From Candidatus Westeberhardia cardiocondylae (GTDB lineage: Bacteria; Pseudomonadota; Gammaproteobacteria; Enterobacterales; Enterobacteriaceae): 64,000 nucleotides of DNA. Below are positions 45,401 to 53,072 of this stretch, one piece after another. Positions within the stretch are counted from its first letter, which is position 1. Each line of letters begins with the position of its first letter. Location of the stretch: positions 1 through 64,000 of the forward strand of contig JABYQB010000003.1 of the NCBI GenBank assembly GCA_024648785.1, given 5' to 3'. A program made the position numbers and the translations under genes. Below the pieces are notes generated by a model. The model was not told where the DNA came from. It did no database searches and worked only from the letters and a program-made list of their open reading frames with translations.

Positions 45401-45488
45401 AAATATACTATTATAATTCAAATAAATTAGTTAATTTAAAACAAATATTATGTTTTAATTTTAAAAATATAAAATAATTTTATTTTTT

Positions 45489-46230
45489 TTATTTTTTATA
45501 TTTGCATCTACATTGATCAAATAAAATTTTTTGTTCATTTGTAAGAAATAATTCATTAAATATATCAGGTCTTCTTAACCAAGTTCTAATTAAAGATTGT
45601 TTTAAACGCCAATAATAAATTTTTTTATGATTACCAGACAGAAGAATATCGGGAACTTGAATATTATTAAAATACCTTGGGGCGAGTATAACAAGGTGAA
45701 CCCAATAATCCGTGCGAAAATGAATCTTCAATTAAAGTTAATCTATTCTTTAGAACTCCCGGGACATATCGTGATATTGCATCAATAAGTACCATAGATG
45801 CTAACTCCCCCCCAGTTAATACATAATCACCTATAGACCACTCTTCATCTATTTCAGTAGAAACTAATCTTTCATCTATTCCTTTATATCTACCACAAAC
45901 AAAAATCATTTTTTTATTTAAAGATAATTTCAATACACCACTTTGATTTAATTTACAACCTTGTGGTGTAAGATAAATAACCTTTGCTCCTTCACCTAAA
46001 TAATTCTTAGCAGCATAAATTGCTTGTTTTATTGGTTTAGCTAACATAATCATACCAGTTCCACCACCATATGGTCGTCCATCAATAGGAAAATTAAAAC
46101 CATTGGAAAAATTACGAGGATTCCAACATGTTATTTCTAAAAAACCATTTTTAACAGCTTTACCTATTATTCCATAATCTGTTATAGAAACAAACATTTC
46201 TGGAAATATTGTAACTATACCAATTTTCAT
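45489..46230 (-). pseudogene. trmD: tRNA (m1G37) methyltransferase, frameshifted
   Basis: TrmD methylates G37 of tRNAs reading CUN, CCN and CGG codons and prevents +1 frameshifting; it is normally essential. The first frame (from 46230) gives [13 protein letters not shown], the SAM-knot motifs [15 protein letters not shown] and [13 protein letters not shown], and ends [10 protein letters not shown] at a stop. The second frame continues exactly at NNIQVPDILLSGNH, WRLKQSLIRTWLRRPD. Removing one T (minus strand) from the T4 run at 45669-45672 restores [13 protein letters not shown], aligned without gap to E. coli TRPEVLEGMEVPP. The restored length is 246 (E. coli 255). A sequence error is a serious alternative. 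Confidence 0.9.
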
Positions 46231-46569
46231 AAATTTCCATAAACTAAAAATTAGTTAATTTGCAAAACACGTTTATAATTATTATATAATAATGTAACTT
46301 AAAAAACAAATAAAAAATAATACTTATTAAAAATATTTAAATATTTACTAAATAAAATAATGTAAAAATTTAAATTACATATAATTTCGATTTAATAATA
46401 TTAAAATATCATGATATTTTTTTATAAATTCAACAAGAATAAATTTATAATTTAAAAATTATTTTAATATTGTAAAAAAAAATTAAAAATAAAAATATTG
46501 TTATAAATTAAAATCTATATATTGTTCATAAAAATTTAAAATAATTCAATTAAAATTGAATAATATAAT
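46231..46569. other. trmD-rpsP spacer, site of lost rimM
   Basis: 339 nt where rimM lies in E. coli. No RimM remnant can be read. An 18-nt AT-rich palindrome (AATATCATGATATT core, near 46405) is the only structure. Confidence 0.55.
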
Positions 46570-46809: not shown

Positions 46810-47207
46810 AACATATCTCCTTTATAAATTAAGTAAAACACATGAAAATTATAAAATATTTTAATAATTTTAAATTAAAAAGTCTGTAAAATTAAAAAAA
46901 TAGAATATTAAAATAACATAAAATGCTGTAAACAATATTAAAACATATAAATATCTAATATATTATAATTCAAATATATAAAAATTCACCAAATGTATTA
47001 AATTGTTTTTTTAAAAAATTAAATAAATATTAATAACAAAATCAATATTTTTATATATAAAAATACATAAAATAATATACACATTTTGTTATTAATAAAT
47101 TTATATTTACTACTAGTAAATATAAATTTATTATGTTAATATTCAAACAAATTTTATACTAAAATATAAATAAAAATTAACATATTATTATAATGAGGTA
47201 AATTCTT
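46810..47207. other. rpsP-aroF divergent control region
   Basis: 398 nt with no ORF. It holds the 41-nt palindrome (47093-47133), a TATACT -10-like element at 47155-47160 and a GAGGT ribosome binding site before aroF. ffh, which precedes rpsP in E. coli, is not here. Confidence 0.6.
47093..47133. repeat. 41-nt palindrome upstream of aroF
   Basis: Two perfectly complementary 20-nt arms (47093-47112 and 47114-47133) flank a single C at 47113; the core reads TTTACTACTAGTAAA. It lies in the rpsP/aroF divergent promoter region, 75 nt before aroF, and ends where the -35 of the TATACT promoter (47155-47160) would be. Position suggests an operator. The sequence does not match the E. coli TyrR box (TGTAAA-N6-TTTACA); the CTAG core recalls TrpR sites only loosely. 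Alternatively it is a structured leader or a cruciform-prone repeat. Confidence 0.85.
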
Positions 47208-48257
47208 ATGAAGAAAAACGGTGAAAATAAAAATAGTTTTTCTTTAAACAAAGAAACAACAATAATTACTCCAAAAATGTTAAAAAAACGTTTTCCATTA
47301 CAAGAATTAGACAAAATATTTATTTCTCAGTCAAGAAAGATAATAAAAAATATTATAAATAAAAAAGATCATAGACTTTTAATAGTTTGCGGACCATGTT
47401 CTATTCATGAAATAGATTCTGCTATTGATTACGCAAAACGTTTAAAAGAATTATCAGAAAAAACACAAAATAAATTATATTTAGTAATGAGATCTTATTT
47501 CGAAAAACCAAGAACAACAGTGGGATGGAAAGGATTAATAAATGATCCATACATAAATAATTCTTATAATATAGAAAAAGGATTACATATATCAAGATCA
47601 TTATTACTGGAATTAACTAAAATAAGAATTCCATTAGCTACAGAAGCATTAGATATTATAACACCTCAATATTTAAGTGACATGTTTAGCTGGAGTGCTA
47701 TTGGGGCAAGAACAATAGAATCTCAAATACATCGAGAAATGGCTTCTGGTTTACATATGCCAATAGGATTCAAAAACAGTACTGATGGGAATATAGATTC
47801 AGCAATAAATTCAATTATAGTGTCATCCAAAAAACATCATTATTTAGGAATAAGTCAAAATGGAGTAGTCTGCACAATACAAACTACAGGAAATCCAAAT
47901 AGTCATATAATATTAAGAGGAGGTCATAAACCTAATTATTATGAAAGAAATATTATAGAATGTGAAAATAAAATTAAACAAAATAACATATCTACATCTT
48001 TAATGATTGATTGCAGTCATAGTAATTCTGAAAAAAATTATAAAAATCAAGAAATAGTAGCAACATCTATATTAAAAACAATAAAATTAAAAAAATATTC
48101 AATAATTGGAATTATGTTAGAAAGCCATATTAATTCTGGAAATCAACAAATAAATGTAAAAAAAGATAAAATGAAATATGGAGTTTCAATTACAGATGCT
48201 TGCATAAGTTGGGAAAAAACAGAAAAACTAATTCTAAAAATACATGATGAACTATAA
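47208..48257 (+). CDS. aroF: DAHP synthase, AroF type
   Basis: First enzyme of the shikimate pathway, condensing PEP and erythrose 4-phosphate. 349 residues (E. coli AroF 356). Landmarks are VCGPCSIH, FEKPRTTVGWKGLINDP, GARTIESQ, HREMASGL, HIILRGGHKPNY, DCSHSNS and YGVSITDACISWE, including the metal-binding C, H, E and D. Similarity (ITPKMLKKRFPLQEL) and linkage to tyrA mark it as AroF, the Tyr-regulated isozyme. E. coli P148 is I150 and E. coli S181 is H183; changes at these positions relieve feedback inhibition in AroF or AroG. tyrA starts 14 nt downstream. GAGGT precedes the ATG. Confidence 0.96.
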   Translation: MKKNGENKNSFSLNKETTIITPKMLKKRFPLQELDKIFISQSRKIIKNIINKKDHRLLIVCGPCSIHEIDSAIDYAKRLKELSEKTQNKLYLVMRSYFEKPRTTVGWKGLINDPYINNSYNIEKGLHISRSLLLELTKIRIPLATEALDIITPQYLSDMFSWSAIGARTIESQIHREMASGLHMPIGFKNSTDGNIDSAINSIIVSSKKHHYLGISQNGVVCTIQTTGNPNSHIILRGGHKPNYYERNIIECENKIKQNNISTSLMIDCSHSNSEKNYKNQEIVATSILKTIKLKKYSIIGIMLESHINSGNQQINVKKDKMKYGVSITDACISWEKTEKLILKIHDEL

Positions 48258-48271
48258 AATTTAGGTAAAAT

Positions 48272-49408
48272 ATGACATTAAAAGAAGATCTTAAAACATT
48301 GAGAGAAAAAATAAATAATACAGATAAGTCTTTAATGAATTTAATACATGAACGTTTATTAATTGTAACAAAAATTGGAATTTTAAAAAAACAACATGGA
48401 TTACCTATATATGATCCTAAAAGAGAACAAAAATTAATTAACAACAAAAAAAAATATGCAAAAATATTAAATATTTCTAAAAACTTTATAGAAAACATAT
48501 TTTACAACATTATTAAAGAATCATATAAAATAGAAGAAAATATAGGATTTAAAACATTAAATAAAAACATAGGACCTATAGTAATTATAGGAGGCCATGG
48601 TAACATGGGAAGTTTTTTTGAAAAAATGTTATCTCTTTCAGGATATGAAATTATTCTTTTTGGTAGGAAAGATTGGGAAAATTCTAATACAATATTAAAA
48701 AATACTAAATTAATAGTAATCAGTGTCCCTATACACTCAACAATAAAAGTAATTAAACAACTTCCTACACTTAAAAATGATTGTATTTTAGTAGATGTTA
48801 CATCAATAAAACATGAACCAATTCAAACCATGTTAAAAATACACGATGGTCCAGTTCTTGGGTTACATCCTATATTTAATCCTAAATCCAACGATACAGC
48901 TTCAAGAAAAACTATGATATATTGTCATGGAAGACAACAAAAATCTTATCAATGGATACTAGATCAAATACAAATGTGGGGTATAACTTTATATAACATG
49001 GAAACAATTGAACATGATAAATATATGTTATTATCTCAATCATTAAGACATTTTATATATTTTACATATGGAATATTTTTAGAAGAAAAAAATATTGATA
49101 TAAAAAAATTGTTCAAAATGTCACCACCAATTTATCAAATAGAACTAACAATGATAGGAAGATTATTTTCCCAGGATCCAGAATTATGTTTCGATATTAT
49201 AACTTCACAGCCGGAAATTTCATTTTTAGTAGATGCATATCAAAAATGTTTAAAAAAAACAATTAAATTAGTAAACAAAAACAAAGAAAAAAAAACATTT
49301 TTTAAATATTTTAAAAAAACCAAATTCTCTCTTGGAGAATATACAGAACAATTAAAAATAAATAGCGATAATATATTAAATAATTTAAATTTACACAAGA
49401 ATAAATAA
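48272..49408 (+). CDS. tyrA: Chorismate mutase/prephenate dehydrogenase
   Basis: Converts chorismate to prephenate and then 4-hydroxyphenylpyruvate (HPP). 378 residues (E. coli 373). The N-terminal mutase domain (1-90) has LKTLREKINNTDKSLMNLIHERL and HGLPIYDPKRE. The dehydrogenase domain has the NAD motif IGGHGNMGS, the catalytic histidine in LGLHPIF, LRHF and the prephenate arginine in MIGRLF. Relative to E. coli, M53 is L and A354 is T; M53I with A354V is a known feedback-resistant combination. Operon with aroF. pheA, its E. coli neighbour, is absent, so prephenate is probably committed to HPP. Confidence 0.96.
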   Translation: MTLKEDLKTLREKINNTDKSLMNLIHERLLIVTKIGILKKQHGLPIYDPKREQKLINNKKKYAKILNISKNFIENIFYNIIKESYKIEENIGFKTLNKNIGPIVIIGGHGNMGSFFEKMLSLSGYEIILFGRKDWENSNTILKNTKLIVISVPIHSTIKVIKQLPTLKNDCILVDVTSIKHEPIQTMLKIHDGPVLGLHPIFNPKSNDTASRKTMIYCHGRQQKSYQWILDQIQMWGITLYNMETIEHDKYMLLSQSLRHFIYFTYGIFLEEKNIDIKKLFKMSPPIYQIELTMIGRLFSQDPELCFDIITSQPEISFLVDAYQKCLKKTIKLVNKNKEKKTFFKYFKKTKFSLGEYTEQLKINSDNILNNLNLHKNK

Positions 49409-49872: not shown

Positions 49873-50840
49873 ATGAAAAAAAACTTTACATTACAAAAAA
49901 ATAAAAAAATTATCAATAATTTAATATATAAACAAAGATTAGATAAAGCATTATCTAAATTATTTCCTGAATACTCAAGATCAAAATTAAAAAATTTCAT
50001 TTTAAAATCATATGTTTCAGTTAATAATACAATTGTTACTTCGCCAAAAAAATATGTAATAGGAGGAGAATATATTAAAATACAAATAATTAAACAACAA
50101 AATCATACATCACAAAATATTAAATTAAATATCATATATAATGATCATGATATTATTGTGATAAACAAACCTAAAAATACTGTAGTACATACTGAAAAAA
50201 AAAACGAAATTGGTACAATATTAAATTCATTGTTATATTATTATCCATCAATATCTAAAATATCAAGATATGGAATAATTCATAGATTAGATAAGGATAC
50301 ATCTGGAATTATGTTAATAGCAAAAACTGAATTTTCTCAAAACAGATTAATAAATGATATGAAAAACAAAAAAATTTATAAAGAATATGAATCAATTGTA
50401 ATAGGAAATATTAAAAATAATGGAAGTATAATAGAACCTATTAAACGACATAAAAAAAAACAAAAATGATAATACATAAAACAGGAAAAAAATCAATTAC
50501 ACATTATAAAATTATAAAATCATTTCATAATCATACATATATCAATATACAATTAGAAACTGGAAGAACTCATCAAATTAGAGTACATATGAAATATATA
50601 AAACATCCAATAGTTGGAGATAAAAAATATGGAAAACCAACATCTAAAAAAGATAAACAAATTAAAAAAAAATATGCAAAAATACTATCTTTTTTTACAA
50701 GACAAGCATTACATGCTAAAACTTTAATTTTCAAACATCCTATTACACTAAACAAAATGAAATTACATGCACCATTACCAAATGACATGATTAAATTATT
50801 AAAAATATTAAAAAAAGAACAAAATAATAAAAAACAATAA
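49873..50840 (+). pseudogene. rluD: 23S rRNA pseudouridine synthase RluD, frameshifted
   Basis: RluD makes the pseudouridines at 1911, 1915 and 1917 in helix 69 of 23S rRNA. Frame one (49873-50469) has the S4 domain (RLDKALSKLFPEYSRSKLKNFI) and the catalytic aspartate in IIHRLDKDTSGIML, and stops after IEPIKRHKKKQK. Frame two continues with KTKMIIHKTGKKSITHY, LETGRTHQIRVHM and DRQALHA-like TRQALHAKTL. They join in an A9 run at 50452-50460. One added A gives a 322-residue protein (E. coli 326) aligned through RHPTKRTHM. All catalytic motifs are intact, so slippage rescue or a sequence error is likely. Confidence 0.9.
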
Positions 50841-50960: not shown

Positions 50961-53072
50961 ATGGAAAATAAAAACATATTAAGTCAATTTACTACTGATT
51001 TAACAAAAGAAGCTGAACAAGGAAAACTTGATCCTGTTATAGGTAGAGACGAAGAAATAAGAAGAACAATTCAAGTATTACAACGTAGAACAAAAAATAA
51101 TCCAGTATTAATCGGCGAACCAGGTGTTGGTAAAACTGCAATTGTTGAAGGTTTAGCACAAAGAATTATAAACAAAGAAGTACCAGAAGGATTAAAAAAT
51201 AATAAAATTTTGTCATTAAATATGGGATCATTATTAGCGGGTGCAAAATATAGAGGAGATTTTGAAGAAAGATTAAAAAAAATACTAATAAACATATCAA
51301 AACAAAAAATAGGAATTATTCTATTTATTGATGAATTACACACTATAGTTGGAACTGGTAACATAGAAGGAGCAGTAGATGCAGGAAATATGTTAAAACC
51401 AGCATTAGCAAGAGGAGAACTACACTGTGTTGGAGCAACAACTTTTAATGAATACAATAAATATATAGAAAAAGACGCGGCATTAGAAAGAAGATTCCAA
51501 AAAATTGTTATACTAGAACCAAGTATACAAGATACAATTGCAATTATAAGAGGTTTAAAAGAAAAATATGAACTACATCATAATGTACAAATAACAGATA
51601 GAGCAATAATTGCCGCAGCAAATCTATCTAATAGATATATTTCTGACAGACAATTACCAGACAAAGCCATAGATTTAATAGATGAAGCCGCTTCAAGTAT
51701 ACGTATACAAATAGATTCAAAACCAGAAGCAATTGACAAATTAGAAAGAAAAATTATTAAATTAAAATTAGAAAAAAAAGCATTATATAAAGAATCAGAT
51801 AAAAGAAGTATTAAAAATTTACAAAAAATTAATTATGAATTAGAAAATGAAATTAAAGAATATTCTAGACTAGAAAAACAATGGAAAGAAGAAAAACATT
51901 ATTTACAACATATTCAAAATTTAAAAAATGAACTCGAACAAACAAAATATTTAATAGATCACGCTCGTCGTATTGGAGATTTAGAAAAAATGTCCGAATT
52001 ACAATACGGTAAAATTCCTGAAATAAAAAAAAACATTTCTTATATTTCTGAAAATAAAAAAACAAAAAAAACCTGTATTTTACAAAATAAAGTAACTGAT
52101 ATAGAAATTGCTACTATATTATCAAAATGGACAAAAATACCAATATCTCAAATGTTAGAAAGTGAAAAAACAAAATTGTTATATATGGAAAAATGTTTAA
52201 ATAATTATGTAATTGGGCAAGAAGAAGCAATTATTTCAATATCAAATGCTATAAGAAGAAATAGAGTTGGGTTATCAGAACCAAATAAACCAATAGGATC
52301 CTTTATGTTTTTAGGCCCAACTGGAGTTGGAAAGACAGAATTATGTAAAAAATTATCTGTATTTCTATTTAATAAAGAACGTTCCATGGTCAGAATAGAT
52401 ATGTCTGAATTTATGGAAAAACATTCAATATCAAGGTTAATAGGTGCTCCACCGGGGTATATAGGGTATGAGGAAGGGGGTTACATAACTGAAAAAATAT
52501 ATAGGCAACCATATTCTTTAATTTTACTAGATGAAATAGAAAAAGCACACCCTGAAATTTTTAATATCTTATTACAAATATTAGATGATGGAAGATTAAC
52601 AGACGGAAAAGGAAAAACAGTAGATTTTCAAAATACTGTAATAATTATGACATCAAATTTGGGATCACAAATAATACAAAAAAAATCTTTACAAAATAAT
52701 TATATAAAAATGAAAAACATGGTTATTGATATAGTAAAAAAAAATTTCAAACCAGAATTCATAAATAGAATTGATGAAATAGTTGTATTTCATAAACTTG
52801 AAAAAAAACATATAAATAAAATTATTAAAATACAAATACAAAAATTATGTAATAGATTAAAGGAAAAAAATTATTTTATTTCCATTGACAAAAACATAAT
52901 CAAATTTATTGAAAAAATAGGATTTAGCCAAATATATGGAGCTAGACCACTAAAAAAAATAATACAAAAAAAAATTGGTAACTTTCTATCTAAAAAAATA
53001 CTTTTAGGAGAAATAAAACAAAATAAAAATATAAAATTAAAATTAATAAAAAATAAAATTACAATTACATAA
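50961..53072 (+). CDS. clpB: ClpB disaggregase without N-domain
   Basis: AAA+ chaperone that, with DnaK, extracts proteins from aggregates. 703 residues, against 857 in E. coli. It begins at [30 protein letters not shown], just after the E. coli internal start that yields the shorter ClpB isoform; the N-terminal substrate-binding domain is missing. NBD1 has Walker A GEPGVGKT and LFIDELH. The coiled-coil middle domain lies at about 260-390, and NBD2 has GPTGVGKT, the pore loop GYIGYEEGG and LLDEIEKAH. The 120-nt spacer upstream cannot hold the missing domain. It follows rluD, as in E. coli, with yfiH lost. Confidence 0.96.

Follow-up and report, generated by a model that had tools for sequence, protein, structure and literature searches.

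We infer that the DAHP synthase AroF encoded in the window (the whole stretch of 64,000 nucleotides that was analysed) is most likely blind to tyrosine, with carbon entering the aromatic pathway unchecked. The predicted enzyme carries substitutions at positions where resistance mutations are known: its isoleucine is the equivalent of P155I in C. glutamicum AroF, and the serine equivalent to S180 of AroG is lost. The deregulated DAHP synthase of the original prediction is thus supported by the identity of the residues, by the C. glutamicum P155I mutant, by the loss of the same serine in the genus mates and by the pathway context. The brake on making a building block of the host cuticle is probably gone, which would mean a dismantled sensor at the entry of the aromatic pathway in a symbiont that is believed to supply its host chiefly with a tyrosine precursor.

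Results

Identification of the enzyme

The features discussed here are collected in Table 1.

Table 1. Positions of the aroF gene, its two altered codons and the neighbouring genes in the window
Feature	Position	Strand	Remark
trmD	45440..46230	-	single-base frameshift after residue 187
expected rimM site, rpsP–trmD interval	46231..46569		AT-rich, no open reading frame
aroF Shine-Dalgarno region, AGGT	47193..47207	+
aroF, only DAHP synthase gene in the genome (AroF type)	47208..48257	+	349 aa, intact, catalytic residues kept
Ile codon ATT at the E. coli AroF P148 position (window I150)	47655..47657	+
His codon CAT at the E. coli AroF S181 position (window H183)	47754..47756	+
tyrA, chorismate mutase/prephenate dehydrogenase	48272..49408	+	14 bp 3' of aroF
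rluD, split in two frames	49873..50840	+	junction at about 50451..50466, run of nine A
clpB	50961..53072	+	703 aa

The aroF reading frame starts with ATG, with the Shine-Dalgarno motif just 5' of it, and its product matches NCBIfam PRK12755 at 497.6 bits (cut-off 343) and also aroFGH (TIGR00034). The closest solved relatives are 6agm and 6agl, the "Tyr-sensitive" AroF of E. coli (E 1e-125). Residues 9–349 align by phmmer with residues 7–347 of E. coli AroF in the tyrosine-bound form (6AGM) with zero gaps and 54% identity, so that the window residue number equals the AroF residue plus 2; E. coli AroF numbering is used below unless stated otherwise. Glycine at position 212 goes with tyrosine specificity, and serine is found there in the Phe enzymes (PMC10349828); the window enzyme has glycine. 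The catalytic and metal-binding blocks are unchanged, as had been predicted, with 14/14 checked positions kept (AroG numbering: C61, R92, E96, K97, R99, E143, G163, A164, R165, K186, R234, H268, E302 and D326). Profile, structure, catalytic residues and G212 all agree, and the predicted protein is a type I-alpha DAHP synthase of the AroF (Tyr-type) subfamily.

Changes in the tyrosine pocket

The isoleucine at the P148 position and the histidine at the S181 position, on which the original prediction was built, are both seen in the gapless alignment to 6AGM. Further pocket changes are N8S, A203V and F210Y, while D147, P151, Q152, D156, L180, G212, I213 and Q215 are retained; the inhibitor-contact set P148, Q152, S181, F210, G212, I213 and Q215 is accordingly not intact (P148I, S181H, F210Y). 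Position 8, changed to serine in the window, is also the site of N8K, a known tyrosine-resistance mutation of AroF. Resistance mutations of AroG include A202T and F209A/S, and in DAHP synthase the serine side chain touches the main chain of the inhibitor (PMC9529685), so that loss of S181 removes a main contact. An AlphaFold2 model built from three sequences had a pLDDT under 50 over the pocket (146–193) and was set aside.

Conservation in free-living relatives

We compared 32 AroF sequences of free-living Enterobacterales that span many genera and families. No variation was seen among them at positions 8, 147, 148, 151, 152, 181, 210, 212 and 213, P148, S181, N8 and F210 being invariant in 32/32. 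Had free-living relatives shared the residues of the window enzyme, this would have counted against the original prediction; a residue other than proline at 148 or other than serine at 181 was found in 0/32. Position 148 taken alone is nevertheless weak evidence and not diagnostic, because AroG and AroH have methionine there, the fungal 7reu threonine (the bacterial 3tqk has valine), and the P155T and P155M enzymes of C. glutamicum remain sensitive.

The excess of changes in the pocket depends on how deeply conserved the columns are. Of 88 columns invariant across the 32 free-living AroF, both AroG and AroH of E. coli, and a pair of distant homologues (the deep set), the window enzyme departs at four (S181H, A200S, F210Y and Q289T), which amounts to 2/4 pocket columns vs 2/84 others (Fisher p = 0.009). 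On the 157 columns invariant in AroF, pocket enrichment is not significant (3/7 vs 24/150, p = 0.10), so the case of this single protein stands on residue identity and recurrence. The reduced genera behave in the same way: 3.25 changes per site in the pocket vs 0.52 elsewhere in the deep set (permutation p = 0.001), and no significant enrichment in the broad 157-column set (p = 0.067–0.16).

Genus mates and pathway context

The genome that carries the window has 447,238 bases in six contigs and is rated 99.75% complete, and the GC content of the window is 20%; one genus mate, G001, consists of one contig with a length of 532,684 bases. Genomes of 0.45–0.53 Mb have been reported for Westeberhardia of several Cardiocondyla ants (PMC9381600). 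The size, the low GC and a shikimate route with tyrA but no aminotransferase would all fit Westeberhardia, and the window genome very probably belongs to this genus of ant endosymbionts.

Comparison of the same sites in these related symbionts, as the original prediction had proposed, showed that the serine is lost in both genus mates, with proline in its place. The AroF of the second mate, G002, has I148 and P181; that of G001 has T148, P181 and N152. T148 tells little by itself, because P155T stays sensitive, and in G001 the argument is carried by S181P and Q152N. The codon at position 181 is TCN (Ser) in free-living AroF, CCC or CCA (Pro) in the genus mates and CAT in the window; a path from TCN through CCN to CAT (Ser to Pro to His) would fit the genus, histidine probably being derived in the window lineage.

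The gene order around aroF–tyrA is identical in all three members of the genus. The genome encodes one DAHP synthase, chorismate synthase AroC and TyrA; prephenate dehydratase, class I/II aminotransferases and TrpE/PabB-type (chorismate-binding) enzymes were searched for in the genome and not found. In E. coli pheA adjoins tyrA; here pheA is missing, and the genes next after tyrA are rluD and clpB. TyrR is judged absent because the sole sigma-54-activator match in the genome falls inside clpB; TyrR boxes in the window gave no signal (35 matches vs 33 expected), and none stands above background in the intergenic region before aroF. With no PheA, aminotransferase, TrpE/PabB or TyrR, chorismate appears to be routed to the tyrosine precursor. 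As there is neither a phenylalanine nor an anthranilate branch and no aminotransferase, the pathway appears to stop at 4-hydroxyphenylpyruvate, which would be the end product and would be converted to tyrosine by a host enzyme. The last step to tyrosine is believed to be done by the host, and tyrosine synthesis is the one nutrient pathway kept in all ant symbionts compared, several Westeberhardia included (PMC9381600).

TyrA is changed at known feedback-resistance positions as well (M53L, A354T, F357L) and keeps H197, H245, D246, H257 and R294; neither M53 nor F357 varies among 32 free-living TyrA. F357L, and likewise Y263H, which is seen in G002, are known resistance mutations of TyrA. M53I/A354V is the standard feedback-resistant TyrA (PMC4945936). 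It should be noted that 45/145 invariant columns of the window TyrA are changed, so its changes at resistance sites may be general decay.

Several neighbouring genes are also reduced or interrupted. The two pieces of rluD (198 and 124 aa) jointly cover positions 10–320 of the RluD profile, and assembly error, a young pseudogene and slippage at the poly(A) tract are candidate explanations of the split. The C-terminal part of trmD continues in the next frame after the frameshift; two frameshifts within 5 kb, in trmD and rluD, may reflect indels of the assembly or slippage of the transcript. The rimM gene seems lost. ClpB lacks about 155 N-terminal residues (profile match 158–854 of 857), that is, the window has the short form without the N domain.

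Recurrence in other reduced genomes

DAHP synthases were gathered from reduced genomes at the family and order levels. The serine at the S181 position is lost in 13 reduced-genome genera, in nine of them to proline, among AroF- and AroH-type enzymes. The AroF-type losses are found in the window genus g1 (His, Pro, Pro), g6 (Pro, Pro), G074 (Pro), G113 (Lys), G102 (Asn), G063 (Leu) and G156 (Cys); AroH-type enzymes have proline in six genera (G008, G056, G091, G148, G157 and G160, at loci L042, L046, L073, L080, L083 and L086). Serine is kept in 13 AroH-type reduced-genome genera that form one clade, and the pocket is nearly or fully intact in the reduced genomes G014, G016, G058, G083, G104, G110, G120, G146 and G149.

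Other pocket sites are affected too: D147N (AroG D146N) occurs in G074, G126 and G102, and P151L (AroG P150L) in G074, G113 and G102, so the well-known laboratory resistance mutations D146N and P150L of AroG occur naturally in the predicted enzymes of symbionts.

On an 81-row tree, the proline state at 181 needs six changes, of which branches with good support force at least four; the distinction between serine and any other residue also needs six, at least three of them forced. The AroF-type enzymes of g1, g6, G074, G102, G113 and G126 cluster on long branches with moderate support, so that some of their losses may not have arisen independently. A nucleotide pattern encoding proline at the serine site matched 1/295 Enterobacterales genomes, mostly free-living; the pattern requires a proline two residues on, and some cases can escape it. 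Recurrent loss of the serine from symbiont DAHP synthases was not found in the literature searched, and its recurrence across reduced genera is the new element here.

Three of the genomes deserve a remark of their own. The DAHP synthase L079 of G102, from a genome of about 0.2 Mb, has four pocket losses (D147N, P151L, Q152K and S181N), two of which are classic laboratory mutations; G102 may be a weevil symbiont of the tyrosine-only kind, Nardonella for example. In the TyrA of G058 (L039) and G113 (L058), the dehydrogenase-site residues H197 and R294 are replaced (H197 by Q and Y, R294 by L and N, respectively), as if the chorismate mutase half alone were maintained; prephenate dehydratase is kept in both.

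Discussion

Selection or drift

A loss of inhibition may have come about in more than one way. We give slightly less than an even chance to drift, in which the sensor was no longer maintained once transcriptional and metabolic control ceased to matter in the bacteriocyte, gathered random and AT-biased changes, and became insensitive as a tolerated by-product rather than an adaptation; such a view bears on the cause and can stand beside the lost inhibition as an account of function. It agrees with the AT-ward direction of P148I (CCN to ATT), with the fast evolution of the proteins and the loss of TyrR, and with the changes in other invariant AroF columns (24/150). Among reduced genomes, an intact pocket tends to go together with a kept PheA, though only weakly: for AroF-type symbionts, the Fisher test of pocket loss against loss of phenylalanine synthesis gives p = 0.33 for S181 alone and p = 0.057 for any of five sites, uncorrected for kinship, so that the link is only suggestive.

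Drift accounts less readily for the change from serine to proline (TCN to CCN), which opposes the AT bias in nine genera with at least four forced changes; AT-ward leucine, phenylalanine or tyrosine would be expected in place of proline. Nor does it readily explain why, within the deep set of columns, changes are concentrated at the pocket (p = 0.001). Proline may, on the other hand, be simply what catalysis tolerates, phenylalanine at this position costing more than 85% of the activity in C. glutamicum. The pocket concentration and the repeated proline argue for selection or for there being few catalytically harmless ways to lose binding.

A tentative proposal, to which we give somewhat lower odds than to drift, is that, in insect symbionts supplying aromatic precursors to their hosts, selection repeatedly removed the aromatic amino acid sensor from DAHP synthase, with Ser-to-Pro as the main solution alongside natural counterparts of AroG D146N and P150L; the Ser-to-Pro substitution at the inhibitor serine is not among the laboratory mutants in the literature searched. 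Overproduction for the host, the cause named in the original prediction, may apply to the window enzyme, and relaxed selection would yield the same residues.

Expected effect on feedback inhibition

Whatever its cause, the blindness to tyrosine proposed for the window enzyme would follow from several changes together. S181H would remove the serine hydroxyl that grips the amino-acid main chain of tyrosine, P148I would put a bulky beta-branched isoleucine where proline contacts the inhibitor, and the changes at N8, A203 and F210 would support the loss of the pocket. Binding of tyrosine would then be weak or absent, and entry of carbon into the shikimate pathway would be independent of the tyrosine level.

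Published mutants are in reasonable agreement with this expectation. When P155 of C. glutamicum AroF (P148 here) is changed to Ile or Leu, about half of the activity remains at 5 mM tyrosine, at which the wild type is nearly dead, while Val, Met or Thr gives no marked resistance; isoleucine is thus one of two residues known to work at 148. AroG is made partly resistant by M147I, which lies at this position too. Ser-to-Phe at the serine position makes AroG resistant, and the corresponding C. glutamicum AroF is uninhibited by 50 uM tyrosine with less than 15% of its activity left; the effects of pocket mutations vary from homologue to homologue (all PMC9529685). At 50 uM tyrosine the unmutated C. 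glutamicum enzyme has about 40% of its activity. For Ser-to-His at the inhibitor serine, no test was found in the literature searched.

It is rather unlikely that feedback is weakened and not lost, with millimolar tyrosine still inhibiting. The retained pocket residues listed above (G212, I213, D147, P151 and Q152 among them) may allow some residual tyrosine binding, and the C. glutamicum P155I and P155L enzymes hold only about half of their activity at 5 mM tyrosine. In the window enzyme, however, the main-chain serine is gone and N8 is changed as well, and at least two losses of direct contacts would be expected to be additive.

A switch of effector, for example to phenylalanine, is very improbable and was rejected: the stretch IITPQ resembles MITPQ of AroG, and residues 149–150 (I, T) are the same as in AroG, but G212, the glycine of tyrosine specificity, is kept (PMC10349828), S181, a contact for either effector, is lost, and prephenate dehydratase is absent from the genome. 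Assembly or sequencing errors, which the single-base frameshifts of trmD and rluD might bring to mind, can hardly be the source of the odd residues and were likewise rejected, since aroF has no frameshift and keeps 14/14 catalytic residues, G002 shares I148, and both genus mates, which are separate genomes, also lack the serine.

Significance and comparison with known systems

Overproduction of whatever the host needs is expected of nutritional symbionts, but evidence of broken control points is scarce and comes mostly from PheA of Buchnera. If AroF has lost its sensor, whether symbiont or host sets the flux becomes testable with simple enzyme assays. Symbionts may also be a natural source of candidates for feedback-resistant DAHP synthases, with Ser-to-Pro foremost, to set against the engineered ones.

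The published Candidatus Westeberhardia cardiocondylae (PMC9381600) resembles the genome studied here in its low GC and in its shikimate and partial tyrosine route; the text of that comparison, as searched, is silent on feedback control and on the residues of AroF. E. coli AroF (6AGM/6AGL) belongs to the same subfamily and shares the catalytic and metal residues, the aroF–tyrA pair and Gly at 212, whereas P148, S181, N8, A203 and F210 are replaced in the window enzyme. The laboratory resistant enzymes (AroF P148L; AroG M147I, D146N, P150L and S180F; C. glutamicum AroF P155I, P155L and S188F) are substituted at the same two positions, and Ile at the proline position has itself been made and tested; unlike them, the window enzyme has natural changes, several together.

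In Buchnera, the prephenate dehydratase PheA was inferred to be desensitised (Jimenez et al. 2000, as cited in PMC2649895 and PMC5054487), and anthranilate synthase retains its feedback site (PMC5054487). PheA, as described in those citing papers, is likewise a symbiont biosynthetic enzyme with altered residues in its allosteric domain, but it is another enzyme with another ligand (Phe) and acts at a branch point, whereas AroF of the window catalyses the entry step of the whole pathway. The loss of a feedback site in a symbiont enzyme therefore has a known precedent in Buchnera PheA, and AroF lies further upstream.
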